Source of the DNA: Gammaproteobacteria bacterium
GTDB lineage: Bacteria > Pseudomonadota > Gammaproteobacteria > Xanthomonadales > SZUA-36
Assembly: GCA_021772915.1 (NCBI GenBank)
Contig: JAJFLB010000046.1
Location: 62,001 to 126,000, forward strand
Length of the DNA: 64,000 bases
Direction: 5' to 3'
The first letter of the stretch is position 1; every line of letters begins with the position of its first letter. The notes under the pieces are model-generated. The model saw only the letters and a program-made list of their open reading frames with translations, searched no databases and had not been told where the DNA came from. Shown one piece after another: positions 16,372 through 57,380 of the stretch. The translations under genes were made by a program, and so were the position numbers.

Positions 16372-16485
16372 CCACTGTGCTGTCCACCGACTAATCATTG
16401 GGGAATACGGACCAGTTCATCGACAAGTCTTCATTGTTGAAGTTGCGTTGTTTAGGATGACTCGGGTGTCAGGAATTCCCGGATA

Positions 16486-18216
16486 ATGCCATTCGCATCT
16501 CCCGCAACACGGACACAAGTTATGCGCGTTAGCCTTTTAGAAAGTCGTCGCCTTACTGGCCCTAACCTGTTCTGGCACCTGCCCAGCGCGATCATCGATG
16601 TGGAATATGGGGGTGTGGATGCAGACAGTGTGGTTGCTTGCTGGCAAAATCATGCCCGGCGCTTTATGAATGCTCTGGGCTGGCAGCAGGAACAAACCTG
16701 CCACCGGATTTACGAAGGTGGGATCAGCATGCTGATATCTGCGTCTATCGACGTACTCTATGCCGCTACTGAAGTTAATGAAGCGGCGTTTAACGCCTGT
16801 GTTGCTGATCTGGATGGTGAGGCGAGTTTGGATTTTGATACGGAGTTGATCCGTCTTCGGGCAGAAATTCAGACCCAGAAAAATCCTGCGCTGCTGGCAT
16901 TGCAGCAAGCCGCACTGGAGCACGGCAAACCGTTTTTGTGGGACGATGACGAGGTGTCCATAGGTTTCGGTGCGAACACGCTGGTCTGGCCGACAGATGA
17001 CTTGCCTGATGTTGCGGAAATCGATTGGCCCGCCGTCGCTTCAATACCGGTGGCACTGGTGACCGGCACGAATGGCAAATCGACCACGGTGCGACTGGCG
17101 TCGTCGGTGCTGGACGCCGCCGGCTACACCGCCGGCATTACCACCACGGACTACATTCGGATTGGCAGTGAGATCATCGCGACTGGTGACTACTCAGGCC
17201 CCGGGGGTGCCCGGCTGCTGGTGCGTGACCACCGGACCGATGTGGCAATTCTCGAAGTGGCTCGGGGTGGACTGCTACGACGGGGCCTGGGTGTCACTGA
17301 GGCGGATGTGGTATTGATTACCAACGTCGCGGCTGATCACCTGGGCGAATATGGCATCAACACGGTGCCTGAATTGATAGAAGCCAAATTTATCGTGCAG
17401 AAATCGCTCAAACCCGGGCGACCGCTGATTTTGAATGCCGATGATGAAGGTATAGTTGCGTACGCCAGCGGTATGCAGCAGCGCATTGTCTGGTTTAGCG
17501 AAAACCGTGACGGACCGGTCATCCAGACACACCTGGCCATGGGTGGTGAGGCGGCTGTTTCCGACCGGGGACGGATTGTCTGGTTGCATGGCAGCGACGA
17601 AGTCCGTGTGGCGAGCCTGTCAGACATACCGATCACACTCGGAGGCGCCGCGCGCCACAATGTGCAGAATGCACTGGCTGTGACGGCCTTGGCAATGGTT
17701 CTGGGAATTGCGTCACCGGTGGTCGCCCGGGGTTTGTGTGCCTTTGGCGGTTCTCGTGAAGACAATCCCGGGCGGGGCAATTTCTTTGCAGCCCACGGTG
17801 TACAAGTGTTGGTAGACTTTGCCCATAACGAATCGGGCGTAAACGCGGTCATGGATACGATTGCTGAACTGCCGGCGACTCGCAGGGCGGCAGTGATCTG
17901 TCAGGCCGGTGACCGCAGCGACGGGCTGATCCGTGATCTGGTGCGATCGGTAATGAAAGCGAAACCCGATTGCCTGGTGGTCTGCGACTTGCCCGGTTAT
18001 GAGCGTGGACGGCCGGCAGGTGAAGCGCAGAAATTGATCGCGCGTTATGCGGAGGAGATGGGCATGGATAAGTCGGCCATCCTGTTTGCCGTGGACCCAC
18101 CGGCAGGTGCAGAAAAAGCGCTGGAGTGGTCCAGTGCGGGGGACTTACTCTTAGTATTGGCACTCAATCAGCGTGATGATGTGTTTGATATATTGAAATC
18201 GCGTGGATTTGAGTGA
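16486..18216 (+). CDS. Cyanophycin-synthetase-like Mur ligase without ATP-grasp domain
   Basis: The protein resembles CphA at both ends: an N-terminal segment (SRRLTGPNLFWHLP) like the start of CphA, then directly a Mur-ligase domain with P-loop GTNGKSTTVR near residues 193-202, EVARGGLLRRGLG and DFAHNESG. The central ATP-grasp domain is absent, so it cannot do the full CphA reaction alone. This is unlike cyanobacterial CphA2, which as I recall keeps ATP-grasp and loses Mur activity. A later ATG at 16522 would align better with the CphA start; the one at 16486 has AGGA 11 bp upstream, so the start is uncertain. It sits 114 bp after cphA. It may assist arginine addition or ligate a related substrate, which is inference. 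Confidence 0.8.
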   Translation: MPFASPATRTQVMRVSLLESRRLTGPNLFWHLPSAIIDVEYGGVDADSVVACWQNHARRFMNALGWQQEQTCHRIYEGGISMLISASIDVLYAATEVNEAAFNACVADLDGEASLDFDTELIRLRAEIQTQKNPALLALQQAALEHGKPFLWDDDEVSIGFGANTLVWPTDDLPDVAEIDWPAVASIPVALVTGTNGKSTTVRLASSVLDAAGYTAGITTTDYIRIGSEIIATGDYSGPGGARLLVRDHRTDVAILEVARGGLLRRGLGVTEADVVLITNVAADHLGEYGINTVPELIEAKFIVQKSLKPGRPLILNADDEGIVAYASGMQQRIVWFSENRDGPVIQTHLAMGGEAAVSDRGRIVWLHGSDEVRVASLSDIPITLGGAARHNVQNALAVTALAMVLGIASPVVARGLCAFGGSREDNPGRGNFFAAHGVQVLVDFAHNESGVNAVMDTIAELPATRRAAVICQAGDRSDGLIRDLVRSVMKAKPDCLVVCDLPGYERGRPAGEAQKLIARYAEEMGMDKSAILFAVDPPAGAEKALEWSSAGDLLLVLALNQRDDVFDILKSRGFE

Positions 18217-21455: not shown

Positions 21456-21929
21456 TCATCCTTGTGCACATGCGAGGCGGGTTCCCGTACAGGCACCAGA
21501 TCTCTTGTAGCTATTACGTACGGCCTTTCTAATGGCTTTTGTTCTTAAGGCTTGCTCACCGTACTTTTTCTTCAGTTTCTCTGCTCTTTTGTGTGCTTGC
21601 TGTTTGTCACCGGTCTGTTGCAGCAATGCATTGCTGTGGTTTATCAACTCTGGTTCGCCAATTTCAGCCGCCAACACCGACCATGCGTAGGCTTTTGTCA
21701 GGTCGGCATTTTTGCCTTCACCGGCGGCATACATTTGCGCGACCCGATTCTGGGCGTAATGGTCACCAAACTTTGCCAGTTTGGTGTAAATTTTGTGCGC
21801 TTTTTTGAAATCGCCTTCAAGGTAGGACTGGTCGGCATCAGTTCGATATTCCTGCAAACTGGTTGCCGCCAGGCTTGGTGCCTGCAGTACAACAAGCATC
21901 AAGGCCATCAACATAAGTACAGATTTCAT
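21456..21929 (-). CDS. Small exported Sel1-like protein
   Basis: The start at 21929 is chosen because a GGGAGAG ribosome site precedes it and a signal peptide (MKSVLMLMALMLVVLQAPSLAA) begins there; an upstream ATG at 22139 lies inside the next gene's 3' end. The mature part has one or two Sel1/TPR-type helical repeats (DQSYLEGDFKKAHKIYTKLA, then NRVAQMYAAGEGKN) and a very basic C-terminus with a cysteine pair. The function is unknown. It lies 142 bp downstream of the seven-gene CRTAC1 operon, in the same direction, and converges with the cyclophilin gene. Confidence 0.65.
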   Translation of the reverse strand: MKSVLMLMALMLVVLQAPSLAATSLQEYRTDADQSYLEGDFKKAHKIYTKLAKFGDHYAQNRVAQMYAAGEGKNADLTKAYAWSVLAAEIGEPELINHSNALLQQTGDKQQAHKRAEKLKKKYGEQALRTKAIRKAVRNSYKRSGACTGTRLACAQG

Positions 21930-22071
21930 AGCACTCTCCCGCCACAAAACTCCCTGTCTGGGGATAATATCAATGACAAACCACATCGTACATATGCCAA
22001 TTGGCCCATATTGAGGGTGTGTTTTATTTTTTGTGCTGTGTTTTGACCTGTAGCGCCTTTCGCCTGGCTGG

Positions 22072-23754
22072 TTATCCGCAGGGCTGATTGTTTTCGTAGC
22101 GCTCGAGCTCTGCCCGTAGGGTTGCTGAGGTTGCTTCATTGCCGGCGTTAAGCGTATCTATCGCCCGCTGTTGCCACTTGGCCGCCTCGCTACACTCGCC
22201 TGCTTCTGCATAGGCCATGGCAACGGTTTGGGCATGCCCAACTGAGGGGCTTGCCTGAAACACTTGCAACGCCAATGGCAGCGCCCTTACACCATCGCGT
22301 ATCGACTTATCGGGGCTTGCTGCCAGGAGTTTCGCCAGTGCGTGGACAACGAGTCCGTTATTGGGGAGGTTTTCATAAGCTTGGTTGAGTACATTTAATG
22401 CCTTGGAGTATTCACCGTTTTGCAATAACAAACGCACACCACCCATCCAGGCGTTTCCGGCAGTTGGATCTATAATTACGGCTTTACGGTAATAATCCAT
22501 GGCCTCTTCAATACGCAGACTTCTCTCCAGTGCCTGGGCAAGCAATTGGTGGGCGCTGGTATCTTCGGTGTTGGCTGATATCACTTTTTCCAGGTGTGGG
22601 ATGGCATCCTGGTGTCTGCCGGTATTTAAATAAAGAAATCCCAGGTTGTAAAGGGCGGTCAGATTATCCGGTTCAAGCGCGAGTGCTTTTTGATGGTGGT
22701 CGATTGCCTCCCCTGTTTCACCCGTTTGCATCAGTGCTGTGCCCAGGTTGATATGGGCCCGTGCGCTATCCCGGTCAAAGGCTAATGCCGTGCGAAAAGC
22801 TTCAATGGATTCTTCAAAACGGCCGGCCGAATAGGCGAGTTTGCCACGCAGCAAGTGGGAACGCTCACCCTGCAGCAATTCCTTCAGACCATCGGCCCAC
22901 GGGTCCCTGGGCTGTATGCCCACGCTGCCCCTTTGCTGTAAATGCTTGACGGCCAGCTCGGTATTGTCCAGCCCACGATATGCCATCGCCAGAGGATAAT
23001 GCAGGCGATTTGCTTCGGGCTGCCTGGCCAGTGCAGTGCTGAGAAACGCGACCGCGGTACGATACTGTTTTTCCTCTACAGCCAGCTCACCGAGACGCGC
23101 CAGCACCACGGTTGCTTCAGGCCTCAGGTAGAACGCCTGCAAGTAGGATTGACGGGCTTCTTCAAGTCGGTTCAGGGCCTGATAAGACTCCCCAATCCGG
23201 ATGTGTAGCAACGCCGGCTGAGGATGAACGGATGCGATCTGATGATAGTGTTCGAGAGCCTCCTTTGGTCTGCCGGTATGCAGGTAAAGCGCAGCCAGAA
23301 AATAGGACCACTGAAATTGGTTCACATCCAGGTGGCTGGCATTGGTATAGCAGATTTCCGCTGCTCGATTGAGCTCATAGGCGTGATAGAGTTTTCCCAA
23401 CTCGCCATAGGCATCAGCCAGTTCGCGGTTGTCCCCGCCTTTCACCTTCAAGGTATCAATCAGGTCACGGTAATGTCGGAGTTGTTCGGCAACGGTTGCT
23501 TCCAGTGACGACAGGTTCTGCTCTGGCAGATCAAGGAGAGTGCCGTTTCTACCAGCAGTTTCTTCCGAATTGATTTCTACCGTTGGGATTTCTGCGGCAT
23601 TTATGGTCGTTGCAAGCACTACCATTGAAAGCACAAAAAGAGTGACCATGAAGTTGCCCACACTGCTTGCATTGGCCGCGGTCACCTCTACTTGAATGTC
23701 TTTTCCGGGCCGCATCTTAGGCCTGATCTCCGGGAGTTTCTTAGTGGCTGTCAT
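22072..23754 (-). CDS. TPR repeat protein with N-terminal membrane anchor or signal
   Basis: This 560-residue protein is built mostly of tetratricopeptide repeats, clearest from about residue 85 to 500 (for example AHINLGTALMQTGETGEAI and ALYNLGFLYLNTGRHQDAI). A hydrophobic stretch near residues 34-54 ending in NAA is either a signal peptide or an anchor. The true start may be a later ATG (23649), which would begin right at the hydrophobic stretch. The annotated ATG overlaps the CRTAC1 gene upstream by 14 bp, so the two are coupled. It is the last gene of the operon starting at 34641. It would act as a periplasmic scaffold for protein-protein contacts, which is inference from the fold. Confidence 0.75.
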   Translation of the reverse strand: MTATKKLPEIRPKMRPGKDIQVEVTAANASSVGNFMVTLFVLSMVVLATTINAAEIPTVEINSEETAGRNGTLLDLPEQNLSSLEATVAEQLRHYRDLIDTLKVKGGDNRELADAYGELGKLYHAYELNRAAEICYTNASHLDVNQFQWSYFLAALYLHTGRPKEALEHYHQIASVHPQPALLHIRIGESYQALNRLEEARQSYLQAFYLRPEATVVLARLGELAVEEKQYRTAVAFLSTALARQPEANRLHYPLAMAYRGLDNTELAVKHLQQRGSVGIQPRDPWADGLKELLQGERSHLLRGKLAYSAGRFEESIEAFRTALAFDRDSARAHINLGTALMQTGETGEAIDHHQKALALEPDNLTALYNLGFLYLNTGRHQDAIPHLEKVISANTEDTSAHQLLAQALERSLRIEEAMDYYRKAVIIDPTAGNAWMGGVRLLLQNGEYSKALNVLNQAYENLPNNGLVVHALAKLLAASPDKSIRDGVRALPLALQVFQASPSVGHAQTVAMAYAEAGECSEAAKWQQRAIDTLNAGNEATSATLRAELERYENNQPCG

Positions 23755-25465
23755 CTGCTTGTCTTATTTCCGTGTATTGTGCCGCGGGTGGAAGTGGCCG
23801 TTTCTCCTGACTGCCATCGGGCCAACTTATTTGCAGGGAGTATTCCTGCGGCTCATCAGGGTAAGCAAACAACACCCGTGGATCGTTTGCGGAACAATAA
23901 CTGCCGTCTGTACCCGACCGGTACCATTGTTGTTTTTTACCCGCCCGATCCAGGTATATTTCCGCTCCCAGCATGTCGCGCCCGGAATCCTTTCCCGTCA
24001 GGCGTAAACCAACCCAGGTTCGGGATTTTGGTGCCACGTTCAGTAATAATCGGGCAGGTCCGTTATTATTGAATACCAGTACGTCCAGATCGCCGTCATT
24101 GTCTACATCACCAAATGCTGCGCCCCTGCTCACATATGAATCTCTTATGGGCGAATCCGGGGAGTAGACAATTTCGGAAAATCCTTTGCCGGACTTGTTA
24201 TGAAACATCTGATTGGGTTGATTCAGCGGGTATAGGGTTCTCTTGCGTACGAGAGGGTCCAATTCAGTTACCGCCCCATTGAGTACGAACAAATCCAGCC
24301 AACCGTCAGTATCATAGTCAAGCCAGGCGGTGCCAAACGCTGTAAAGGGGAAACTATTGACACCAAGACCGTAAAACAGGGTGCGGTCCTCGAACAATCC
24401 ACGTCCCAAGTTGCTGTAAAGAGTATTGGTTTCGCCCATCAGGTGAGTCATGAACAAATCCGGATCCCCATCCCGGTCAAAATCACCAGCATCGACACCC
24501 ATACTCGCCTCTGCACGGCCCTGAATGTTTACTGCAGTGCCGGCAAAAAGTGCATTGTCGGAAAATTTCTGTCCTTGCTGGTTAATCCACATCTGGTTGG
24601 CCTGACCATCATTGGCGACATAGATATCAATCCAGCCGTCCTGGTTGAAATCTGCCGTAATTACACCGAGGCCCGCCCTGGGTTCGTAGCCAACCATCAA
24701 CTGATCGCTGACCTCCTCGAATCTACCGTTGCCCAGGTTATGAAAAAGGCGATCGTGGAGTCCGTTAAAGGCTGACGGGCCACAATAATCCTGTCGACTG
24801 CTTTTGGCGTAGCAGGTCTTGTTCTCCCCAATTGAAAACGCCACATAATTGGCGACATACAGATCAAGCCAGCCGTCACGATCGTAGTCAAAAAATGCCG
24901 CGCTGGTGCCCCATTGGTTATCCGTGGTGTGAGCTTCCTGGGTTACATCGGAGAAAGTGCCGTCACCATTGTTTTTCAACAGGTGATTGCTACCATACTG
25001 GGTGACATAAAGATCCACCCAGCCGTCATTATTGTAGTCCCCTGAAATGACCCCCATTCCGTAACCGGCCATCGTCAAGCCACTTTGCTTTGTGATATCC
25101 TGAAAACTTAGTTCACCCGTGGACTTGCCACTGCGGATCAGGTCATTTCTGAGCAGGCGATCGTTGACGGGTGTAGACCGTGGTTGAAATAACGCATCTT
25201 CCAACGATCTGTCCTCACCAAGCATGCTGCCCTGCACCAGGTATACGTCCAGGTCACCATCATTATCAAAGTCGAACAGGGCGCCTCCAGCACCGGTCAT
25301 TTCGGGAAAGTAAAATTGCCCCGACATACCGTTGAAGTGGACAAAGTCCAGACCGGTTTCAGCTGATGCGTCCCTGAAGATTGCTGTATCTGCCGTTGTG
25401 CCAGGCAGAGGATTCATCAGCCACGCACACAGGCTAAGGATTAAGCCTGGTCGACGGCTGCTCAT
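23741..25465 (-). CDS. Exported CRTAC1-type beta-propeller protein (FG-GAP/VCBS plus ASPIC/UnbV)
   Basis: A signal peptide (LILSLCAWLMNPLPGTTA) is followed by repeated calcium-loop motifs of FG-GAP/VCBS repeats: DFDNDGDLDVY, DYNNDGWVDLY, DYDRDGWLDLY, DFNQDGWIDIY, DFDRDGDPDLF, DYDTDGWLDLF and DVDNDGDLDV. These should fold as an integrin-like beta-propeller. The end (about residues 475-565) is an ASPIC/UnbV domain. The same architecture occurs in human CRTAC1 and many marine bacterial surface proteins, usually of unknown role. It overlaps the cytochrome gene by 4 bp and the TPR gene by 14 bp. The protein is probably periplasmic or on the cell surface. Confidence 0.82.
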   Translation of the reverse strand: MSSRRPGLILSLCAWLMNPLPGTTADTAIFRDASAETGLDFVHFNGMSGQFYFPEMTGAGGALFDFDNDGDLDVYLVQGSMLGEDRSLEDALFQPRSTPVNDRLLRNDLIRSGKSTGELSFQDITKQSGLTMAGYGMGVISGDYNNDGWVDLYVTQYGSNHLLKNNGDGTFSDVTQEAHTTDNQWGTSAAFFDYDRDGWLDLYVANYVAFSIGENKTCYAKSSRQDYCGPSAFNGLHDRLFHNLGNGRFEEVSDQLMVGYEPRAGLGVITADFNQDGWIDIYVANDGQANQMWINQQGQKFSDNALFAGTAVNIQGRAEASMGVDAGDFDRDGDPDLFMTHLMGETNTLYSNLGRGLFEDRTLFYGLGVNSFPFTAFGTAWLDYDTDGWLDLFVLNGAVTELDPLVRKRTLYPLNQPNQMFHNKSGKGFSEIVYSPDSPIRDSYVSRGAAFGDVDNDGDLDVLVFNNNGPARLLLNVAPKSRTWVGLRLTGKDSGRDMLGAEIYLDRAGKKQQWYRSGTDGSYCSANDPRVLFAYPDEPQEYSLQISWPDGSQEKRPLPPAAQYTEIRQADDSH

Positions 25466-27552
25466 TCTCCGGCCAATAGTTGTCGCTGGTTGTTATCCAA
25501 TCTATGCAGTGAGGATATTTCCCTTGCCTGTATCGGAATTCGTATTGACTCGCGTGTAATGGTCGTCACAGGCGTTCGCAGCCCTGCTTCCTCGCCAAAT
25601 AACCGATCCATGAAAGCCGCGTCGGCCTTTTGATACTTGAGTTCAGCGATGATTTCCAGTTCGCTGGCACCGGCCGGCGCGCTGAAGTTAATTGCCCGGT
25701 TTTCGCTATCCGCCTTGCTCGAGGCTAGCGTCATAGCGCTTGGACAGACAAACCTGTAGGTGGCGCTGTCCGACATGCCGGGGAAAAGCACGCGCTTGTA
25801 CTGGGCGCCAACCATTTCCCATAAATTGTGGCGATCGATGGAATTACCCTCACGGTCAATCCCTTCGGCTTTGAATATCACCGCGTCCGGACTCATACGT
25901 CCATGTTCATCCGGCTTTCCGGACTCGAAAACGACATTACCGGAATCATCCAATACAGTAAGTTCCACCCAACTTCGGATGATGTCCATGGGGCCGGTAG
26001 GGAACCCGTGACCGGTTTTGTTGTTGGTGAGTACCAGTTGCAGTTCTACTGCTTCATCCGGGTGCACGAGAGCGGGCCCATTCAGCTCGAGGCGTATGAC
26101 CGGGCCGGCGACCCAGCGTTCTGCTATTTCGGGTATGTCGATTTTACCCTGTAACCATTTTTCGGTTAATTCGACGTGTTCTCTTGCACCGGGCAAATCC
26201 ATCAACAGCGGCATCACCTGGTTGGCGGCCAGGAACCGGTGCGAGCGGTGTTTGCCATCGTTTACGTTGCGATTTACATCACTGCTGTCGCCGGCCGCCG
26301 GATCGGTTGAATCGATCAATGGCATGTGGCATTCGCGGCAGGTTATGGTCTTGCTTTGTTCATCCTCGTTGTGCCAGCGGCTTTCCTTCCAATTGTCGTA
26401 CTGGTTCTGAAGTTGTACCCAACCGATTTTATTGACTTCCTCGTCAATAAACTGCTTATGGCAGGCGGCACAGTATTCGGCTGTCTTGTACATGGGCTTT
26501 GAGAAACTGGCCACGTGTTGCCGGGGATAGGCGCGAATCAAAAAATCACTCATCCACTTGTCGAAACGACCGCTGCTGCGCTCACCTGCATAGCGCAGCG
26601 GCTGGCTGATGGTGTAGTCGGCATTACCACGCACGTCGGTCTGGACAATTGCGTGGCACGCTATGCAGGATACGCCCTCGTCAGCACCGGGTGAGGTCAG
26701 GCCATCGACATTGACATTCTTACTGCCCGAGAACAAGGCAATCGGATCGTGGCAACCCGCGCAATATCTTGTGCCTTCCGGTCCGAGGTCCCGATAGAGC
26801 AGCTCCTGTACCTCCTGGAAGGCGAGATCCGACGAGGCATAGCGGTGTGCGCTGGGTATCCACTCCGCAAGAATCTGATCGTGGCAACCACTGCTGCCGC
26901 AATTCTTCGAACCGGACAAGGTAGCCGGGTCATAGGCGCCGTTGCTTTGTGTATGTCCGAGGCTGGGTGCAAAAGGCCTGTCCTCACCGTAGGGGAAGGT
27001 GTAATCAGCCGGGAAGACATTGTTCGTCTCGGTCGCCGGATTCATGATGGGAATCGCAGCCTGTACGATCAACAGTGCCACCGAACCCCCTGCAACCAGC
27101 CTCAAAAAACGTCGCTTGATGAAGGGCAGGTCGGCATCGGGGTTGCGTCCCCAGATCACTGCCAGGTGCATTACTGTCGCCAATATCAAGGCCAGACCGG
27201 TGTACAGGTGGGCAACCGACCAACCGTAGCTGATACGTTGACCCAAAGTCGCCTCAACAGTCAGCCAGACACCGGTGAGAATACAGGCCAGGATCAGCAC
27301 AAAACCTATGTAACCCAGCAGTTGCACATGATTGAAATTGGAGCGGAAACGCCTGGACCAGTGGTGGATTGAGTACCACAAAAACGTCAGCATCCAGATC
27401 AGGCCAATACCGGTGTGCAGCAGCACCCCATACTGGTTGAATTCACTAAAGGGCGCCAGGTAGACCAGCAATCCGGTCAACGCCTCGAAAGTCAGGCCGA
27501 TCATGCAGATCAGGGTGAGTGGGTTGACCCATTCAGGGGTTGCTTTGCTCAT
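25462..27552 (-). CDS. Membrane cytochrome: b561-like N-terminus fused to multihaem c domain
   Basis: With the start at 27552 (696 residues; an upstream in-frame start at 27582 overlaps the nitrilase gene), about four to five transmembrane helices lie in residues 13-172, with histidines positioned like a cytochrome b561-type haem b domain (LLHTGIG, YSIHHW, VAHLYTG, VMHLAV). The periplasmic part has four CXXCH sites (264-268, 296-300, 361-365, 405-409) and one CX4CH (218-224), so up to five haems c. The last 250 residues are beta-rich, without haem motifs. It could move electrons between the quinone pool and the periplasm or surface. It resembles c554-like multihaem proteins, not NrfA. It is coupled to genes on both sides. 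Confidence 0.78.
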   Translation of the reverse strand: MSKATPEWVNPLTLICMIGLTFEALTGLLVYLAPFSEFNQYGVLLHTGIGLIWMLTFLWYSIHHWSRRFRSNFNHVQLLGYIGFVLILACILTGVWLTVEATLGQRISYGWSVAHLYTGLALILATVMHLAVIWGRNPDADLPFIKRRFLRLVAGGSVALLIVQAAIPIMNPATETNNVFPADYTFPYGEDRPFAPSLGHTQSNGAYDPATLSGSKNCGSSGCHDQILAEWIPSAHRYASSDLAFQEVQELLYRDLGPEGTRYCAGCHDPIALFSGSKNVNVDGLTSPGADEGVSCIACHAIVQTDVRGNADYTISQPLRYAGERSSGRFDKWMSDFLIRAYPRQHVASFSKPMYKTAEYCAACHKQFIDEEVNKIGWVQLQNQYDNWKESRWHNEDEQSKTITCRECHMPLIDSTDPAAGDSSDVNRNVNDGKHRSHRFLAANQVMPLLMDLPGAREHVELTEKWLQGKIDIPEIAERWVAGPVIRLELNGPALVHPDEAVELQLVLTNNKTGHGFPTGPMDIIRSWVELTVLDDSGNVVFESGKPDEHGRMSPDAVIFKAEGIDREGNSIDRHNLWEMVGAQYKRVLFPGMSDSATYRFVCPSAMTLASSKADSENRAINFSAPAGASELEIIAELKYQKADAAFMDRLFGEEAGLRTPVTTITRESIRIPIQAREISSLHRLDNNQRQLLAGE

Positions 27553-27553
27553 T

Positions 27554-28588
27554 TCACTGTCCCGTCTTGGCTGTTTTGTCACCGAAACCCAGCTTCTGCT
27601 TGGTTTTTTCGATCAGCTTTGTCTGTTTGTCCACCGAACGTTCGGCGGCCCCGCTCGAAGCCGGGAACACGGGGTTTCTCTGGGTGGTATAAAGCTCGCT
27701 GCGTAATTGTGCCGGCATGGCATGACCGATACGACGTTGCCGCTCCTGGTGCAAGGCGTCAATATTGATAGGCGCAACCACGATGCGCTCTCCCGGGCCG
27801 GGTGAGGCCTCAGCCAGGATTCGACCGTCGTAGTCCACCACCATGCTACCACCCGGCCATGAAAAGGGTGGGTACTTACCAGCTGTTGCGCCCTGGTTGG
27901 CGGCCACCACATAGCACATATTCTCCAGCGCGCGGCAGCGGTTAACTGTACTCCACCAGTCCATAGGTGCGGTTGCCCCCCAGGGATCCATGTAGGCGGA
28001 AATGCGAATCAATACCTCGGCGCCACGCAGGGTCAACTCACGGGTAACCTCGGGAAAAATCCAGTCGTAGCAGGTGGCGACTGCCAGCTTACCAATCGGC
28101 GTAGCGATGACCGGAAAAGGATCATCCGGATAGTCTGGAATGTCGTGTGGGCTGGCCGCAACTTCCCAGGGTATCCATGGATTTACTTTGCGGTATTTCG
28201 CCAGGATACCATCTGGGCCGATCAGGCAGGTGGTGTTGAATACCACGTCCGGCCAGCGTTTATCGATCTCCAGAAAACTTCCGGTCTGCACGTAAATGTT
28301 CAATTCATGTGCCTTGGCGGTGATACGCTCGGTGTGTTCATTTGGGATCGGTACTGCCAGGTGGTCGAGCAGTTCTGCAACCGTTGGATAAACGGGTGCG
28401 GCATGGGCGAACTCTGGGAAGACCACCAGTTTGACATCGTGGAAGGGCTCATAACCGACAACAGCTTGCTCGATCATCTCCAGCATACGGTCGGTGTTTA
28501 TTTTCATCTGCCGGCGGTGCATCGGGTTTGGCTGATCCACCTGACAGGCAGCGGCATAGTAAGTTTTCAAGGCAGAAACCTTCTCCAT
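27554..28588 (-). CDS. Nitrilase / carbon-nitrogen hydrolase family protein
   Basis: The catalytic triad of the nitrilase superfamily is present: E59 in VVFPEF, K134 in KYRKVNPW and C173 in ATCYDWIFPE. At 344 residues with no signal peptide it should be cytoplasmic, acting on an amide, carbamoyl or nitrile substrate that I cannot name. The C-terminus (SVDKQTKLIEKTKQKLGFG) is a short basic extension. Its ATG overlaps the stop of the giant lipoprotein gene (TAATG), and the next gene begins 1 bp after its stop. It is an unexpected soluble enzyme between genes for exported and membrane proteins. Confidence 0.88.
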   Translation of the reverse strand: MEKVSALKTYYAAACQVDQPNPMHRRQMKINTDRMLEMIEQAVVGYEPFHDVKLVVFPEFAHAAPVYPTVAELLDHLAVPIPNEHTERITAKAHELNIYVQTGSFLEIDKRWPDVVFNTTCLIGPDGILAKYRKVNPWIPWEVAASPHDIPDYPDDPFPVIATPIGKLAVATCYDWIFPEVTRELTLRGAEVLIRISAYMDPWGATAPMDWWSTVNRCRALENMCYVVAANQGATAGKYPPFSWPGGSMVVDYDGRILAEASPGPGERIVVAPINIDALHQERQRRIGHAMPAQLRSELYTTQRNPVFPASSGAAERSVDKQTKLIEKTKQKLGFGDKTAKTGQ

Positions 28589-31500
28589 TAGTTACCTGAC
28601 CGATAGCGCGTGTTGTACTGGCGGTGCAGTTGCTCCGCCACACGTGGATGTTCGCCGCTCGAAGGGAGTGGGCCCACGGTGGCTCCGTCTTTGGTATAGA
28701 GATCCATATCCTTGGCCCAGCCAAAACTCTCAAAGACAAAGGTCCTGCTCCAGTTTTTCCTTACGGGGCCGGCGTCATCCCTGAATGCCATCTCCACCGT
28801 TTCTCCGGGACCGATGATGGCCAAGCCATCATCCTTTTCTGCGACCAGTTCCCGCACATCACCAAATTCAGTATAAAAACCGGCCATGTGCCGCGTATCC
28901 CAAAAGGGAGCCGACCGATCGTAATCGTAGTGCGGCAGACGTTGCGTCCCGGTCGTGCGTTGGGGGAAACCGTTGCTACGAAGCCTGGCGTTGTCAAGTG
29001 GGTATTCGTGGCGTTCCATCGTGGGTGGCAGTTCACTGTAGGCAACCGCTATCCGGTCCCAATAAATTTCCTGATTGGTACGTAAACGCAGCCTGGTGGT
29101 GCCTTTGGGTAGCTCGCCAAGCGGCACTGATATCCGCCTGGGCATGCCCGCCGGATAACCGAATTGGTCTATCAGAACCTGCCATTGTCCATCCTCACCG
29201 GCGGCATCAATCGATGGTGCCAGGTAGGGCGCCCCCGCCTGCCAGGCCCCAAACATGGTTTGTGAATAGGGGTATTCAATCCAACCGTCGATCACCAGCA
29301 TGGGCTCACCCGCGAGCCTGTCCAGTGTTTGCGTGAACTCCAGTGTCAGGCTGTGTTCCTTCTCCAGCAGACCGATAAAGCGTGCATCGGGGGCTCCCAC
29401 CGGTGCTGCTTTCAGGTCAGCGCTCAGAATTGCAGAGGTGACGTTTTGTTGTTGATTGTTTCGTGCGCTTACCGGTAGTAATTCGGTCTGGTAGAACCTG
29501 GGCTCACCACTCGCCTGGGGACCGAGTATTGCAGAGCGCTCGTCCAGCACAAGCTGCCAGCCGGGCGGCAGGTCGTAAGACGTTAGTCGCGCCTGATCCA
29601 GGTAAGCGGTTTCTTCCATCGGCTCTCCCAGACTGATCAGAAAACGACCTTCTTTGGCCTGTAGCAATGCAGACGGTAACTGCAGGTTTTCCCGTGGCCG
29701 TGATTTTGTATATTCAGCGTAACCGGTTTCAAAACCAATACCGCCAACGCCCAGGATATCGCTGATGAAACGATAGCTTTGCCCATCCCAGGCAAACAGC
29801 ACTGGGCAACTGGCAATTTGTCTCTGGGTTTCGGATATCCTGTGTAGTTGACCTGAAGTGACGTCCAGTTCTGATTGAAATACACCATCGGTCCACTCAA
29901 GTGCGATGAAATCTGCCTGCCGTGCCCCACCCAAACCCAGCGTATAAGGTTGCAGGCTTTGACCAGGTCCCGTGCTCTGGCGAAAAGCGGAAACAACCGA
30001 CCAACGGTCCGCAACCCGAACGGCGGCATGGGTGCCAATCCCGGAGGCATTGGACCGCATGGAGAGTGCTCCCTCTTCTTTGCCACTGAAACTCAAGCCG
30101 ATAAATTCGCTGCGACCCCTCCCGGCTTGCCAGTAAAGTAAATCACCCTGTTGGCTGAGACCGACTACCCCCGGGCCTTTCGATACCTGATTGGTAATGG
30201 GTACCCAGTGTAGGAGCCCGGCCTGCTGGTAGCTTGCCACTGGAATCACTTGGTCACCCTTAAGCTTGAATACATCCCAGCCACTTCCGGTTGAGCCCAG
30301 CATTTCACTGACACCATCACCGTTGATATCCAGCATTGCCAGCAGTGTACTCTTGCCCGGCTTCAAATCGGCAGCACCTGCCAGGGTGTATTTCTGCCAG
30401 ACCTGATTTGCATCCGGTTGCCAGCGGCTTAGTAATCCCTGCGCAGAAAGTGTGTAGAGTTCGGGAATGCCATCGGCGTTTCGGTCCTGCGCCAGTGCCG
30501 CGACCGCTGGTGTAGCGGCGAAGTCAACGAACCCCGGTGCCGCCCGGTAATGCCACAACAGGTCGTTCAAGTAGATTTCATGACCACCGGTTTCATTCAT
30601 TATCAGGATGTCTGTGTCCCTATCCCGGTCCAGGTCGGTTAACAGAATCGAGCGACTGCCCGGCCCTGAACCCTGGATACCGGCGACGGCCGCGAGGGGT
30701 CTGAAAGTGCCATCGCGGTTGTTGTTGAGCAGTTCATTGGGTCCATCGGAATTGACCAAAAATACATCCAGATCACCGTCATGATCGGCGTCAAAAAGTG
30801 CACCGTCCCGACTGTCCCAGCGGCCATTGGCCGTCACCGGACTGGTCACGTCTTCCCAGGTGCCTGCAGCCGTCTGACGCCAGTGCTGGTTGGCCCCGTT
30901 TCTGCACAGGTACAGATCCAGTAAACCGTCGTTATCGATATCACCCCAAAGGGCTGCATTGATGGCGGGGGTTTGTGTGAACGGATAATCCTGCTGCACG
31001 GTGAAACCACCATCGTTGTCGCCCAGCAAAACAGTATTCGGGTAAGCTGCACGGGGCTGATTGTTGGCGACAAAAAGATCCAGCTGACCATCGTTATTGA
31101 TGTCAGCGACGGTGATGTGGGGGCCATGCTGCGAGGTCCCTATATCCGGTTTGGTCAGCAACACCATCGGTGGGTCAAAAAGCGGTCCACTCGGTGTAAA
31201 CACAACCTGGGGGCCATCTTCACCATATGCCCTGACCTCGGCTTTGGGTCCCATACGTGTGTATTTGAACTCGGCCTGCCGGGAACGTGGATTGGTCGCC
31301 ATCCTTTGATAGACATCCAGCATTTCCCGGGCCTGGTCGGTGGCACCCAGTTTACGCAGGGTTTGAAAAGCACCGTAATAGCCGCTGCGCAGATGGGGAT
31401 CAAGTTCAATGGTTTTCTGATACCAGCCCAGGGCCGTTTCCAACTGGCCAAGCTGCGCCAGGCTTAATGCCAGATAGTAGCTGGCATAGGCGTCGCCGGG

Positions 31501-31902
31501 GTCTGTTTCTACCACAAATGTAAAGTGCTGTACGGCTTGGGCAAGCATGCCCGAGTTGAGCTTCAGTATGCCGCTAAGGTAGTGACCCCGCAGGTGATGC
31601 TCCGATTTTTCCAGTATCCTGGTAAATCGTTCAAGCGCCTTGGCTTCATCACCTGGCTGTTGCCGGTTGAGGGTTGCTATACCGAGGTCAATCTGCAACT
31701 CAAGCTTGGACGGATTGGCCTCAACAAGTTCGGCCAACACCGTCAATGCTTCCGCATAACGATATTGCCCCATCAACCCTATCGCCCGGTTGTGCCGGCT
31801 CAGATGTTCATTAGACAGCGCATCGGGATCCTGATAGCTACATGCGCTGAGCAAGAGCAGGGCAGGTATTGATAAGCAAATTCTACGGGCCAGATTGAGC
31901 AT
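28588..31902 (-). CDS. Giant lipoprotein: TPR, FG-GAP propeller, ASPIC/UnbV and unknown C-terminal region
   Basis: The N-terminus is a lipoprotein signal with lipobox LLSAC (C21). Residues about 30-205 are TPR repeats. Residues about 255-560 carry FG-GAP/VCBS loops such as DINNDGQLDLF, DIDNDGLLDLY, DADHDGDLDVF and DLDRDRDTDIL. An ASPIC/UnbV-like stretch follows near 600-680. The last 400 residues have no domain I can name; they begin CPVLFAWDGQSYRFISD, look beta-rich and have several tryptophans and tyrosines. The length of 1104 residues is well above the usual 550-700 of CRTAC1 proteins. It is probably anchored to the outer membrane. It starts 26 bp after the next upstream gene and its stop overlaps the nitrilase start. 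Confidence 0.8.
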   Translation of the reverse strand: MLNLARRICLSIPALLLLSACSYQDPDALSNEHLSRHNRAIGLMGQYRYAEALTVLAELVEANPSKLELQIDLGIATLNRQQPGDEAKALERFTRILEKSEHHLRGHYLSGILKLNSGMLAQAVQHFTFVVETDPGDAYASYYLALSLAQLGQLETALGWYQKTIELDPHLRSGYYGAFQTLRKLGATDQAREMLDVYQRMATNPRSRQAEFKYTRMGPKAEVRAYGEDGPQVVFTPSGPLFDPPMVLLTKPDIGTSQHGPHITVADINNDGQLDLFVANNQPRAAYPNTVLLGDNDGGFTVQQDYPFTQTPAINAALWGDIDNDGLLDLYLCRNGANQHWRQTAAGTWEDVTSPVTANGRWDSRDGALFDADHDGDLDVFLVNSDGPNELLNNNRDGTFRPLAAVAGIQGSGPGSRSILLTDLDRDRDTDILIMNETGGHEIYLNDLLWHYRAAPGFVDFAATPAVAALAQDRNADGIPELYTLSAQGLLSRWQPDANQVWQKYTLAGAADLKPGKSTLLAMLDINGDGVSEMLGSTGSGWDVFKLKGDQVIPVASYQQAGLLHWVPITNQVSKGPGVVGLSQQGDLLYWQAGRGRSEFIGLSFSGKEEGALSMRSNASGIGTHAAVRVADRWSVVSAFRQSTGPGQSLQPYTLGLGGARQADFIALEWTDGVFQSELDVTSGQLHRISETQRQIASCPVLFAWDGQSYRFISDILGVGGIGFETGYAEYTKSRPRENLQLPSALLQAKEGRFLISLGEPMEETAYLDQARLTSYDLPPGWQLVLDERSAILGPQASGEPRFYQTELLPVSARNNQQQNVTSAILSADLKAAPVGAPDARFIGLLEKEHSLTLEFTQTLDRLAGEPMLVIDGWIEYPYSQTMFGAWQAGAPYLAPSIDAAGEDGQWQVLIDQFGYPAGMPRRISVPLGELPKGTTRLRLRTNQEIYWDRIAVAYSELPPTMERHEYPLDNARLRSNGFPQRTTGTQRLPHYDYDRSAPFWDTRHMAGFYTEFGDVRELVAEKDDGLAIIGPGETVEMAFRDDAGPVRKNWSRTFVFESFGWAKDMDLYTKDGATVGPLPSSGEHPRVAEQLHRQYNTRYRSGN

Positions 31903-31927
31903 GGTTCAGTCTTGAGGAACCTCTGAT

Positions 31928-33745
31928 TTACTCAGTTGTGTCGTGGCTGTATTTTACGACATGTTGTACTTCATTGACCATGTTCAGGGTGACGTCCCGG
32001 TAAGATTCCTCTACGTTATCCGGCCACCTGATAATCACTTCATCAACGGCGTCCGTCGGTCCCAGCCCAAAGTAGAGATCCGTTGTGTGCTGGGACAGGT
32101 AGCTGCCACCGCCGCCAACCTGAGCGGTCTGGGTCATGGTGGTACTGCGGACCGTTACCATGGCTCCCAGTGCGAATGTGTTACCCCCTCTTTGGCGCAG
32201 ACGCAGACCCAACCAGTTGTTATCCGTTTGGGTCGTATTTTTCAGTAACAACACGGTTCCGGAGTGAACTTGCAGGGCTATATCCACCAGGCCATCGCCA
32301 TCATAATCGCCATGCGCGCCGCCACGACCCACAAAAGGGGCGGTTAGCTCCGGAATGGCCTTTTCGGACACTTCTAAAAAGCCCGCCCCGGGTTCCTGTT
32401 GGTACAGGTGCATTCGTTGTGGTTTGAGGCGCGTGTTATCACCGGGGACCTGCAGCGTACTACCATTGGCCACCCACAAGTCTGCGTGACCATCATGATC
32501 AAAGTCGCTAAACCCGGTTGCCCAGCCGACGCTGCGCAAAGAGACCTGGCCCAGACCTGACATTTCAGCGTTGTCCATGAAAAACAATCTTGGTCTCTCC
32601 GCCGTGTTTGTCAGGCCCTCGGAAATCATATTTTCGAACAAGCCGTTTTCTTGCGCCAGCCAATGGGTGACGAACAAATCCAGATCCCGGTCCTGGTCAA
32701 TATCGGCCACTGCGATGCCCATGGCACCACGGTAATCAGCCGCCAAAGATGACGCACCTATATCGACAAAGGTCCCGTCGCCCAGGTTCTTATACACACC
32801 GTTTGCCGAGACGTCGTTGGCAATGTACAGGTCAGGCCAGCCATCAGTGTCAAAATCCACCCAAACGACTCCAAGCGAGCGCCCCTTGGGGTTGGCGACA
32901 CCCGCTGGTAAGGCGACGTCCGTAAAGCTGCCATCGCCATTGTTGTGATATAGCCGGTTTGGGGCGGGTGGATAGGAAGACGGATTAATAGTGTAGGGGA
33001 TTTCTGCCTCGTACTGACTGGAGGCTCGCTCCTTATCCGTTAACCGGTACGCGAACTGAACATAATTGCTCACATACAGGTCAATGTGACCATCGCGGTC
33101 GTAGTCACCCCAGGCCACAGAGGCGCTGAAGTGACTATCTGCAACACCAGCCTGTACGGAGACTTCTTCGAAGCTTGAATCACCATTATTGCGATACAGA
33201 CGGTTAGCACCATAACTGCTGATATAGAGATCAAGGTAACCATCATTGTCGTAGTCGCCCCAGCCGGCACCAAGACCGAAGTCCGGTTGGTCGAGACCTG
33301 ATTGCCTGGTTACATTTGTAAAACGGCCGTTACCGTCATTGCGGTAAAGGGCATGAATACCAGGCTGGGGGTTGTTCTCCTGCGGTACAATGCCATGCTG
33401 AAAGTTGACCAGAAACAGGTCCGGGTCACCATCGTTGTCATAGTCCCCCCAGGCAATTCCTGAACCCATGTCTTCCGGCAGCAATGAACTGCGTGTGGCG
33501 GGGAAATGTATGGAATCAATTCCGCTGTTTTCGACCAGTTTGAAACTCAGGCGGGTAATTGCTTGCTGACGCCGGTTCAACACACTGGTGATTGCGGTAG
33601 CATCGGGTTGCAGTTCATGTGTATCGCTGGCCGGGTTCAGCAGGCCTGCAATAATTAATACGGCCAGTGTCAAACCGAAGGCAAGCGCGGTGGTGCCCCA
33701 AAGGTAGAGTAGTCGTCGGCGTTTTGTCGTTGAACGAAAAGACAT
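31928..33745 (-). CDS. Membrane-anchored CRTAC1-type beta-propeller protein
   Basis: The ATG at 33745 lies 2 bp after the fructosamine-kinase-like stop and is preferred over an in-frame TTG at 33754. A basic N-terminus (STTKRRRLL) precedes one transmembrane helix near residues 12-35. The exported part has FG-GAP/VCBS loops (DYDNDGDPDLF, DYDNDGYLDLY, DYDRDGHIDLY, DFDTDGWPDLY, DIDQDRDLDLF, DFDHDGHADLW, DYDGDGLVDI) and ends with an ASPIC/UnbV domain (LGLRLRQRGGN, GGGGSYLSQHTTDLYFGLG). It resembles the protein at 23741 but is anchored instead of cleaved. It is the second gene of the operon. Confidence 0.82.
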   Translation of the reverse strand: MSFRSTTKRRRLLYLWGTTALAFGLTLAVLIIAGLLNPASDTHELQPDATAITSVLNRRQQAITRLSFKLVENSGIDSIHFPATRSSLLPEDMGSGIAWGDYDNDGDPDLFLVNFQHGIVPQENNPQPGIHALYRNDGNGRFTNVTRQSGLDQPDFGLGAGWGDYDNDGYLDLYISSYGANRLYRNNGDSSFEEVSVQAGVADSHFSASVAWGDYDRDGHIDLYVSNYVQFAYRLTDKERASSQYEAEIPYTINPSSYPPAPNRLYHNNGDGSFTDVALPAGVANPKGRSLGVVWVDFDTDGWPDLYIANDVSANGVYKNLGDGTFVDIGASSLAADYRGAMGIAVADIDQDRDLDLFVTHWLAQENGLFENMISEGLTNTAERPRLFFMDNAEMSGLGQVSLRSVGWATGFSDFDHDGHADLWVANGSTLQVPGDNTRLKPQRMHLYQQEPGAGFLEVSEKAIPELTAPFVGRGGAHGDYDGDGLVDIALQVHSGTVLLLKNTTQTDNNWLGLRLRQRGGNTFALGAMVTVRSTTMTQTAQVGGGGSYLSQHTTDLYFGLGPTDAVDEVIIRWPDNVEESYRDVTLNMVNEVQHVVKYSHDTTE

Positions 33746-33747
33746 GT

Positions 33748-34641
33748 TTAGCAATTTAATTCATTTAATAACGAATCAATCATTCTCTGTGCCTGACTGG
33801 CATATCCGCCACCGAAAAGGTTGAAGTGGTTCAGGATGTGGTACAGGTTGTAGAGTATCTTACGAATTTTATACCCGGCATCCAACGGCCAGGCGTTGTT
33901 GTATGCCGTATAGAAATCGTTACCAAATCCACCGAACAGCTCAGTCATTGCCAGGTCCGTCTCGCGATCACCAAAGTACACGGCCGGGTCAAAGATGGTG
34001 GGTCGACCGGCCAAAGTGTAGGCGTGGTTTCCGGACCACAAGTCGCCGTGCAAAAGCGAGGCCTTGGGTTGATAGGCCGTAAACAGCAGTGGAATCTGCT
34101 CCAGCAGTTTCTCACCGCTTGAGGCCAGTTCGTTGCCAGCACCATTACTGCTCGCAAGTTCCAGTTGAAATCGCAGGCGTTGCTCACGCCAGAAATCGAC
34201 CCAGCTATCAGTGGGTGAATTTGGTTGCGGTGTAGAGCCGATGGTGTTGTCACGGTGCCAACCGAATTGAGAATGCCTGATACGGTGCATGGCAGCCAGT
34301 CCCTCTCCGAGTGCCACCGGCTGCGGGCTTCCACCCAACTGGAGGTTCTCCATGACCAGCCAGGCCGTCAGACCGTCCTCGCCCCAGCACAACGGCGCTG
34401 GAATGTGCAGCCCGTCTGCACGGCCCAGTTCCTGCAAACCCGCCGCCTCGGCAGCAAACATATCCAGCTTGTCGGCGTTGTTGAACTTTACAAAATAAGT
34501 GACATCGCCATAACGAATGCGCATGGCCTGGTTAATGCAGCCGCCACCGACCGAGCACTCGTGCTCATACTCGGCTTCAACACCAGTTGCCGTGGCGATG
34601 TCAGCGGCCACACTCTTTAAAATAGATTCCAACCGAGCCAT
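33748..34641 (-). CDS. Fructosamine kinase family protein
   Basis: The fructosamine-3-kinase/ketosamine-kinase-like family has a protein-kinase-like fold and removes sugars from glycated amines after phosphorylation. Motifs are the N-terminal VGGGCINQAMRIRYGD, LVMENLQL, the catalytic HGDLWSGN (Brenner-type loop) and FDPAVYFGDRETDLAMTELFGGF with the metal-binding aspartate. The length of 297 residues is typical and the protein should be cytoplasmic. It is the first gene of the seven-gene operon. Its connection to surface propellers and cytochromes is unclear; it may be a housekeeping gene captured at the operon head. Confidence 0.88.
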   Translation of the reverse strand: MARLESILKSVAADIATATGVEAEYEHECSVGGGCINQAMRIRYGDVTYFVKFNNADKLDMFAAEAAGLQELGRADGLHIPAPLCWGEDGLTAWLVMENLQLGGSPQPVALGEGLAAMHRIRHSQFGWHRDNTIGSTPQPNSPTDSWVDFWREQRLRFQLELASSNGAGNELASSGEKLLEQIPLLFTAYQPKASLLHGDLWSGNHAYTLAGRPTIFDPAVYFGDRETDLAMTELFGGFGNDFYTAYNNAWPLDAGYKIRKILYNLYHILNHFNLFGGGYASQAQRMIDSLLNELNC

Positions 34642-34808: not shown

Positions 34809-35036
34809 ATGGAAGAGCTTTCCAAGACTGAGTTTAAAGCGCACGCGCTGCAGGTGTTAAGGGAGATTGAGCAAAGTGGTAAGTCCAGAATTATTACCAA
34901 CCACGGCAAGCCGACGATTGAGATCAGAAAACTAAGAGAAAGAAAAGCGAGCCCTTTAGAGGTACTAAAACGTACTGTTGTTGAGGTCTGCGAATTTGAT
35001 CAACCGATTGGCGCTGATGATTGGCAAAATGCCTGA
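34809..35036 (+). CDS. Phd/YefM-family antitoxin
   Basis: A 75-residue protein with the Phd/YefM pattern: ELSKTEFKAHALQVLREIEQSG, then IITNHGKPTIEIRKL, as in DNA-binding antitoxins. The acidic C-terminal tail would wrap and neutralise the toxin. The stop overlaps the toxin ATG by one base. A palindrome at 34734-34760 is its likely operator. Confidence 0.85.
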   Translation: MEELSKTEFKAHALQVLREIEQSGKSRIITNHGKPTIEIRKLRERKASPLEVLKRTVVEVCEFDQPIGADDWQNA

Positions 35037-35434
35037 TGCTGGTCCTCGATACACATGTTTTACTGTGGTGGGTAAGTGGCTCTGGTGCCTTATCTGCGGC
35101 TGCAAACAAAGCCATAAAAAATACTCTAAGCAAGGCAGGTGAAATCATAATCTCCTCCATTTCAGCATGGGAAATATCCATGCTCATCAAAAAAGAACGC
35201 CTGGTTCTAAGCATGGATGCAGAAAGCTGGCTTGATGAAGTTCGTCAAATTGATGGTGTCCGGTTTGTGCCGGTTGATAATGAGATCGGTATCAAATCAA
35301 CCACTTTGCCTGGGGAGTTTCACAAAGACCCTGCAGATCGCATGATAGTGGCGACCGCAAGAAAATTAGCTGCCTCGTTAGTGACGGCTGATAAGAAAAT
35401 GATCAACTACGAGCACGTAAAAACCATCTGGTGA
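35036..35434 (+). CDS. PIN-domain toxin, VapC family
   Basis: With the ATG at 35036 (132 residues) the protein begins MLVLDTHVLLWW, with the first PIN aspartate (D5). It continues with SAWEISML (conserved glutamate) and DPADRMIVATA (third and fourth acidic positions), then LVTADKKM near the end. PIN toxins of this group cleave RNA, often tRNA, when the antitoxin is lost. An upstream TTG at 35021 lies inside the antitoxin gene and was rejected. The operon order of antitoxin first, with one-base overlap, is typical. Confidence 0.88.
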   Translation: MLVLDTHVLLWWVSGSGALSAAANKAIKNTLSKAGEIIISSISAWEISMLIKKERLVLSMDAESWLDEVRQIDGVRFVPVDNEIGIKSTTLPGEFHKDPADRMIVATARKLAASLVTADKKMINYEHVKTIW

Positions 35435-42922: not shown

Positions 42923-43393
42923 GTGGAATCCAAGTCAGAAAAATCACTTGCCCGTATCAGGGCGCGCTGTAAGCACGAACCATACGCGCAGCTACTTGGA
43001 CTTGAAGTGCTGGAAATCTTTCCCGGCTATGCCAGGGTTGCCATGCAAGTCAAACCTGAAATGCAAAACATATTTGGAATGCTGCATGGCGGTGCGCTGT
43101 TTTCACTGCTGGATGAGGCTTTTCAGCTGGCCTGTAACGCCCACGGGGAAGTGGCGGTGGCGCAGCAGGTCAACACCTATTTTCTCGCTGCGGCACGCCC
43201 CGGCACCCGCCTGATTGCCGAGGCAAAGGAACTGAACGCTACCCGTAAAACGGCGCTTTACGATGTTCGTGTGTATGAGGAAAACCAGGTCGGTGGGGAG
43301 AACCGTTTGCTTGCCACGGCACAGGCGCTTGCCTATCGCAAAGGTGGACTTTTGCCGTTTGACGCCGATGGTGAATTACAGGTCCAGGAGTGA
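42923..43393 (+). CDS. Hotdog-fold acyl-CoA thioesterase, PaaI-like
   Basis: The 156-residue protein has the PaaI/YbdB pattern NIFGMLHGGALFSLLDEAFQLAC, whose H-GG-D/E residues form the thioesterase site, and VNTYFLAAARPGTRLIAEA. The start is a GTG at 42923. Such enzymes hydrolyse aryl- or phenylacetyl-CoA intermediates to free CoA. It is directly coupled to the acyl-CoA ligase gene, whose ribosome site (AGGAG) overlaps its end. The substrate is unknown. Confidence 0.8.
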   Translation: MESKSEKSLARIRARCKHEPYAQLLGLEVLEIFPGYARVAMQVKPEMQNIFGMLHGGALFSLLDEAFQLACNAHGEVAVAQQVNTYFLAAARPGTRLIAEAKELNATRKTALYDVRVYEENQVGGENRLLATAQALAYRKGGLLPFDADGELQVQE

Positions 43394-43397
43394 ACCG

Positions 43398-54890: not shown

Positions 54891-54900
54891 GCTTGCATCC

Positions 54901-56196: not shown

Positions 56197-56207
56197 GGTT
56201 TTTCCCG

Positions 56208-57368: not shown

Positions 57369-57380
57369 AAGTTTCAGGCC

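Follow-up and report, generated by a model that had tools for sequence, protein, structure and literature searches.

Gene Organization of the Locus

Within the window, by which we mean the whole stretch of 64,000 nucleotides analyzed, the open-reading-frame listing contains seven genes, all on the minus strand, at the coordinates that the initial annotation had assigned to them (Table 1). For CRTAC1a an alternative ATG at position 33745, and for CYT an ATG at 27552 in place of the GTG of the reading frame at 27582, align with the starts of the corresponding reading frames in the closest relative, the congener locus L045. With those starts the FN3K-like gene and CRTAC1a are separated by 2 bp and NIT and CYT by 1 bp, the alternatives being an overlap of 7 bp with the TTG and one of 29 bp with the GTG. 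A gap of 25 bp lies between CRTAC1a and LP, whereas the remaining pairs overlap, LP and NIT by 1 bp, CYT and CRTAC1b by 4 bp, and CRTAC1b and the TPR gene by 14 bp. The initial description of seven tightly packed genes running in one direction was accordingly borne out, with gaps of 1–25 bp and overlaps of 1–14 bp when the L045-matched starts are used.

Table 1. Positions and predicted properties of the features of the locus, numbered from the first nucleotide of the window.
Feature	Position	Strand	Description
FN3K-like gene	33748-34641	-	PF03881, E 3.6e-103; adjoins the module, not a conserved part
CRTAC1a	31928-33754	-	TTG start; N-terminal hydrophobic anchor, FG-GAP propeller, ASPIC/UnbV
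LP	28588-31902	-	1104-aa predicted lipoprotein; lipobox LSAC|SYQ; TPR at ~31-202; FG-GAP propeller; C-terminal part long and conserved
NIT	27554-28588	-	Predicted cytoplasmic nitrilase-superfamily amidase; Glu59, Lys134, Glu142, Cys173
CYT	25462-27582 from GTG; 25462-27552 from preferred ATG	-	Membrane cytochrome
CYT membrane domain	27013-27540	-	Four invariant His: H56, H74, H125, H139 (ORF numbering)
CYT periplasmic domain	25513-26985	-	Five heme c motifs and Ig-like C-terminal domain
CRTAC1b	23741-25465	-	FG-GAP/ASPIC propeller; signal-like N-terminus
TPR protein	22072-23754	-	TPR (Pfam); hydrophobic N-terminal signal

The Pfam search of the seven proteins found FG-GAP repeats (FG-GAP_3) together with the ASPIC/UnbV domain (UnbV_ASPIC) in both CRTAC1 proteins, TPR and FG-GAP_3 in LP, CN_hydrolase in NIT (E 2.4e-37), and Cytochrome_C554 in CYT (E 3.2e-06). 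A Sel1-like reading frame at 21456-22139, downstream of the TPR gene, had no counterpart at L045 and was not counted as part of the set.

Recurrence of the Gene Set

Loci for comparison came from two sources: a search of genome contigs with LP, in which the best 80 of 426 relatives were kept (79 loci), and a CYT search of the window's order (200 genomes), the hits being fetched with their flanks. From the former, the strong matches (L039–L064, 26 loci) were mapped, and the weaker, mostly propeller-only ones (L065–L117, 53 loci) were left out. Adjacency was then counted over the window and 66 loci, taking for each pair only those loci in which both genes were found and including three duplicate loci (L136=L043, L118=L045, L141=L063). 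On this basis NIT and LP were neighbors, never more than 400 bp apart, in all 37 loci, on the same strand in 36; CYT and CRTAC1a were same-strand neighbors in 49 of 53, and LP and CYT likewise in 42 of 50; and CRTAC1b adjoined the TPR gene in all 14. Removal of the duplicates left these proportions at 34/34, 47/50, 40/47 (one strand), and 11/11, respectively. The common order among the fetched loci was NIT-LP-CYT-CRTAC1a, the CRTAC1a homolog lying directly 3' of the cytochrome gene in most relatives; in the window and L045 the six genes form a single run in the order CRTAC1a-LP-NIT-CYT-CRTAC1b-TPR. Among the LP matches kept, the hosts are labeled as Gamma- and Betaproteobacteria and Planctomycetota, and include Wenzhouxiangella limi C33 (L043); the label Kuenenia of L054 we treated as doubtful because of a G+C content of 61%.

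Of the 32 genomes with this NIT subfamily among the 200 of the window's order, 30 also carried CYT (Fisher p 2e-25, kinship among the genomes being ignored), where presence of CYT means E <1e-30, a limit picked after the table had been seen and below which the next value was 6.6e-16 or weaker. In 25 of those 30 genomes both genes lay on one contig within ~6 kb, and in five (G004, G010, G026, G094, G188) they lay on different contigs. Two genomes (G157, G172) possessed NIT without a strong CYT, and nine had CYT without NIT. Similarly, seven loci contained CYT with neither LP nor NIT in the fetched stretch, one as CYT alone (L127) and the others as CYT-CRTAC1a pairs (L119, L120, L122, L128, L129, L156), while L121, L154, L155, and L157 end at a contig edge and are uninformative in this respect. 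These loci, along with the five genomes in which NIT and CYT are on separate contigs, indicate that CYT does not strictly depend on NIT or LP. Conversely, L041 and L055 have NIT-LP and lack CYT; neither the neighbors of LP in L041, L055, and L067 nor the LP-like gene of L065 gave a functional hint. In a phylum-wide search, with at most five first-look candidates scored for each genome listed, NIT reached E 1e-60 in 1 of 398 genomes, namely the window's own.

Since the arrangement recurs in distant genomes, the neighborhood goes beyond chance, with the exception of the FN3K-like gene. Six of the seven genes, from CRTAC1a to the TPR gene, belong to a recurrent module. Separate occurrence of the genes in related genomes had been named at the outset as the observation that would speak against a unit; they are mostly together, apart from exceptions such as L041, L055, and L119. 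The recurrent order therefore supports the view of a conserved gene set with an electron-transfer part and a predicted cytoplasmic nitrilase, though as a unit of six genes and not of the seven first proposed. In searches of open-license papers we recognized no description of this gene set.

The FN3K-like gene was considered as a member and rejected. Of 31 genomes searched, among them the window's own, 19 carried it: 5 of the 7 with NIT and 14 of the 24 without. In the four other genomes possessing both it and NIT (G107, G132, G004, G009) it lies on a contig other than that of NIT and CYT, and it was missing from the fetched 25 kb of L045, the closest related module locus. Of the two cytoplasmic enzymes that the initial annotation had assigned to the system, the FN3K-like one consequently falls away, and we regard that gene as an ordinary neighbor in the window's genome. 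A different kinase-like gene, with a weak Kdo/WaaP match, adjoins CRTAC1a in L121, L124, and L126, which proximity is probably coincidence.

The Cytochrome

CYT begins with four to five membrane helices, which are followed by five heme c motifs and an Ig-like domain. In the window the C-x2-4-CH motifs stand at residues 228, 274, 306, 371, and 415, and exactly five were present in each of 50 complete CYT sequences. The CYT tree separates a second type, comprising the window, L045, L039, L040, L059, L119, L120, L156, and L157 (support 1.0), from the common type, whose members carry an additional C-terminal TPR.

In ten sequences drawn from both types the membrane domains are only 18–22% identical between the types, yet four histidines are invariant across both, with spacings of 18 and 14 residues. 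A comparable arrangement of histidines holds the two stacked hemes b of cytochrome b proteins, which makes electron transfer across the membrane likely; the CYT membrane domain probably binds two hemes b. The earlier designation of CYT as b561-like holds with regard to these four histidines, whereas no solved heme-b structure resembling the domain was found and the Pfam b561 and DUF4405 matches remain below a reliable score: DUF4405 matched 3 of the 10 domains (best E 0.0092; the window's domain 16.3 bits against a cut-off of 26.7), and Ni_hydr_CYTB matched one (E 0.022).

The periplasmic domain matched Thermochromatium c552 (5ze8), by phmmer with E 0.0034 and by profile at E 1.2e-10 over ~100 residues. 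The same structure was the top Foldseek match of the CYT model (E 1.4e-5, TM-scores 0.22/0.35), which model is weak (pLDDT 57), and no heme geometry was taken from it. The NCBIfam ExtKL model NF040886 matched all 12 CYT members submitted, at best with 1.3e-8 and in the window with only 0.096, where the 11.2 bits lie far below the curated cut-off of 250 bits. As judged from these similarities, the periplasmic part of CYT is a distant relative of the pentaheme group that includes Thermochromatium c552 and ExtKL. All 17 CYT sequences compared carry Pro or Thr at the Sec site of MccSep (U325, after GHxxxxG), a stretch over which MccSep aligns with a negative score. Outside the motifs, four histidines of the periplasmic domain are invariant (H246, H356, H448, H525), and, there being five hemes c, one of these may be open or differently ligated.

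The Nitrilase, the CRTAC1 Proteins, and LP

In NIT, the residues E59, K134, E142, and C173, which we take to be the Glu-Glu-Lys-Cys catalytic set, are invariant in 14 of 14 sequences, and a hydrophobic N-terminus occurs in none of 32. The nearest curated families are formamidase (NF009803, 114 of 406 bits) and aliphatic amidase (80 of 427 bits), with neither cut-off reached. NIT is therefore best described as a predicted cytoplasmic amidase of a separate subfamily.

CRTAC1a, whose homologs have a hydrophobic N-terminus in 41 of 45 cases, had murine CRTAC1 (9etn, E 1.3e-20) as its sole match among solved structures. That structure was also the best fold match of the LP model (pLDDT 81.5), in which a TPR part, a CRTAC1-like propeller, and a long beta-rich C-terminal part can be distinguished. 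A lipobox was found in 27 of 40 LP relatives by a crude test, which also flags 8 of the 32 NIT. The residue after the lipobox Cys is Ser in the LP of the window, and Asp in 4 of the 27. According to the usual sorting rule for lipoproteins a Ser in that position points to the outer membrane, where we accordingly place LP provisionally. We know of no settled function for CRTAC1-type proteins of bacteria.

Evolution of the Module

Among 22 common-type loci—the duplicates and L154 (short, though not a duplicate) having been left out, as also in the neighbor clusters and motif counts—distances in the trees of NIT, LP, CYT, and CRTAC1a showed correlations of r 0.88–0.97, which vertical descent alone could give, a single order supplying the majority of these loci. 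When the window and L045 were added (24 loci), the r for LP-CYT fell to 0.48, while that for CYT-CRTAC1a stayed at 0.93. The CRTAC1a of the second-type loci also group together, along with those of L061 and L135 (support 0.88). LP of the window groups with L045, L039, L040, and L061 (support 1.0) and lies near the LPs of Planctomycetes with weak support (0.31–0.51).

Between the two types, CYT distances exceed LP distances about twofold (ratio 2.05), as compared with ratios of 0.65 within the common type and 1.32 within the second. Because the CYT of the window is of the divergent type while its LP is not, a swap of the cytochrome is suggested, by which one LP family would have been combined with two cytochrome types. 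Alternatively, the second-type CYT could have evolved fast, the within-type ratio of 1.32 being also high. Four genomes (G104, G108, G177, G187) contain a common-type cluster and, separately, a second-type CYT-CRTAC1a pair.

Neighboring Genes and Respiration Markers

Nineteen clusters of neighboring genes were found in at least three loci each, most of them from close relatives, and four (k0, k1, k13, k15) were annotated. The more widely recurring are k1 (UDP-GlcNAc 2-epimerase, 6 loci), k5 (another gene of CRTAC1 type, 4 loci), and k14, which occurs in L122, L129, and L135 from three families and by eye resembles a response regulator. By eye, too, k10, in L043, L132, and L134, is transporter-like. 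In the congener G107 the module lies ~75 kb from a MoxR/vWA pair, and does not adjoin it. A comparison of flank synteny found no clean empty site.

A link to nitrate or nitrous-oxide respiration was considered and set aside, as the counts in the 200 genomes revealed no clear association with the module: narG occurred in 10/32 genomes with NIT versus 31/168 others (p 0.15) and in 12/39 with CYT versus 29/161 others (p 0.08), and nosZ in 4/32 with NIT versus 10/168 others (p 0.25).

Proposed Function of the Module

From the gene content and its conserved order, the correlated distances, the heme c motifs, the invariant histidines, and the conserved active-site residues, we infer, tentatively and short of regarding it as established, that CRTAC1a through TPR, six genes in all, specify a periplasmic redox complex linked to quinone and accompanied by an amidase. 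In such a complex CYT would draw electrons from the quinone pool through its two putative membrane hemes b and pass them to the five periplasmic hemes c, and CRTAC1a, at the inner membrane, would be the propeller protein dedicated to CYT. As a predicted outer-membrane lipoprotein, LP would be a scaffold or the site of electron use, aided by the CRTAC1b-TPR pair, and NIT, in the cytoplasm, might handle a small amide that is a substrate or a product of the complex. The association of LP with either CYT type fits an LP that needs such a partner. A broader formulation, which we hold to be possible though doubtful, is that of a horizontally mobile trans-envelope redox system in which the CRTAC1 propellers serve a pentaheme cytochrome of the b/c type as its dedicated partners and the amidase acts on a nitrogenous substrate or product.

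If, alternatively, the module were a catabolic oxidoreductase, an open heme of the pentaheme domain would oxidize or reduce some small nitrogen compound of the periplasm, and the resulting amide would be imported and split by NIT into ammonia and an acid. The excess of one heme over the invariant non-motif histidines, the weak relation of CYT to multiheme proteins of the c554 and MccSep types, and the proximity of NIT to formamidase and aliphatic amidase would all suit this scheme, which we nevertheless consider unlikely: wide recurrence of a transporter was not demonstrated (one recurrent neighbor, k10, being transporter-like by eye), NIT scores far from the formamidase cut-off, and the Sec site of MccSep is replaced throughout.

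The distant kinship of CYT with ExtKL and the lipobox of LP raise another possibility, that of an extracellular electron conduit, CYT supplying LP at the outer membrane with electrons bound for minerals or other cells, as is thought for the ExtKL-type cytochromes; and in the sections consulted of a paper on cable bacteria, pentaheme proteins are proposed as possible parts of conductive structures (PMC11976967). Such a conduit seems improbable here, since it would leave the cytoplasmic amidase unexplained, and since neither a porin nor a further multiheme cytochrome was found among the seven proteins of the window (Pfam), nor a porin among the four annotated of the 19 recurrent neighbor clusters.

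More improbable still is a role in the envelope, where the redox proteins and the TPR and propeller scaffolds would mature or repair exported proteins while NIT cleared a damaged or side-product amide. The TPR parts of LP, of the TPR gene, and of the common-type CYT would accord with that role, and the relatives of NIT include deaminated-glutathione amidase, an enzyme of repair; yet a client protein was not found beside the module, as far as the 4 of 19 annotated neighbor clusters extend. That the genes are merely co-located and share no function, as the separate occurrence of CYT-CRTAC1a and NIT-LP might suggest, we regard as very improbable in view of the recurrent order in distant genomes, the correlated distances, and the presence of both CYT types alongside LP.

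Relation to Known Systems and Significance

The redox complex that we favor has partial counterparts among described proteins. The fused b/c cytochromes of Geobacter of the CbcL type have a heme-b membrane domain joined to a multiheme c domain, as is proposed for CYT; from CbcL, CYT presumably differs in heme number, domain order, and partners. With the pentaheme cytochrome (PHC) family (Thermochromatium tepidum c552, 5ze8; ExtKL; MccSep) CYT shares five heme c motifs and an Ig-like domain, but the four-His membrane domain is fused to these, as is the C-terminal TPR in CYT of the common type; moreover, it has neither Sec nor Cys at the Sec site of MccSep, and falls far below the ExtKL cut-off. 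In the window both CRTAC1 proteins have the FG-GAP propeller and ASPIC/UnbV of murine CRTAC1 (9etn), whereas the versions of the module are bacterial and tied to a cytochrome gene, LP adding TPR and the long C-terminal part. Likewise, NIT has the superfamily and the Glu-Glu-Lys-Cys residues of formamidase and aliphatic amidase (AmiF, AmiE) while forming a separate subfamily.

The PHC group, its Ig-like domain, and the likeness to an archaeal nanowire cytochrome are treated in the cable-bacteria paper, in whose consulted sections c552 has no clear assigned role, one in sulfur metabolism being suggested, and a fusion to a heme-b membrane domain is not among the PHC features found (PMC11976967). 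The nearest published case that we found, compared here by its description, is that of the HZS-like gene sets, in which, according to the sections consulted, a CRTAC1 gene flanks genes resembling those of hydrazine synthase (PMC12758564); the two arrangements share a CRTAC1 gene beside periplasmic heme proteins, but those sets encode hydrazine-synthase-like subunits.

The module looks like an undescribed electron-transfer system. For the pentaheme family, which the cable-bacteria paper connects with conductive structures (PMC11976967), CYT presents a different architecture. The occurrence of the module in two phyla, as labeled, and in Wenzhouxiangella limi C33 makes it testable without the organism of the window, and the pairing of CRTAC1 with a cytochrome makes the function of bacterial CRTAC1 proteins testable; if the trans-envelope redox reading were true, it would give those proteins a function.

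Genes around the module and at its loci elsewhere

Immediately upstream of the nitrilase-superfamily amidase gene (NIT), one recurring gene was found at nine loci in other genomes (L130, L142, L144–L147, L149, L152, and L153), the sole copy scanned, that of L147, encoding a TonB C-terminal domain. A response-regulator-like gene, so judged by eye, lies near three loci, from three families, that carry the genes for the five-haem membrane cytochrome and its propeller neighbor CRTAC1a (L122, L129, and L135). The contig of locus L054 is titled Candidatus Kuenenia stuttgartiensis, but its G+C content is 61%, a value at odds with that organism's composition; L054 probably represents a mislabelled bin. 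In the window, the PIN-domain gene has the module on one side and an AAA/vWA-like gene pair on the other, which pair was kept in most of the congeners searched, its second gene in 7 of 10.

Features in the window, in its own genome, and at module loci elsewhere
Feature	Location	Strand
Cyanophycin-synthetase-like gene, then shorter Mur-ligase-type gene	window 13564-18216	+
PIN-domain (toxin-type) gene	window 35021-35434	+
AMP-binding enzyme	window 43263-44936	
BadF/BcrA-type ATPase, two HGD-D component, and enoyl-CoA hydratase genes, consecutive	window 53577-58151	-
narG	own genome, contig C52:72225-75929	
TonB C-terminal-domain gene upstream of NIT	L147:3135-4016	
Additional, separate gene for a five-haem cytochrome, upstream of module	L063:6361-8097	

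Metabolic context

Since the gene row that includes the BadF/BcrA-type ATPase resembles a portion of an ATP-dependent benzoyl-CoA reductase cluster, the window's organism may degrade aromatics anaerobically; and, given the narG of its genome, which scored above the curated cut-off, this bacterium may respire nitrate.
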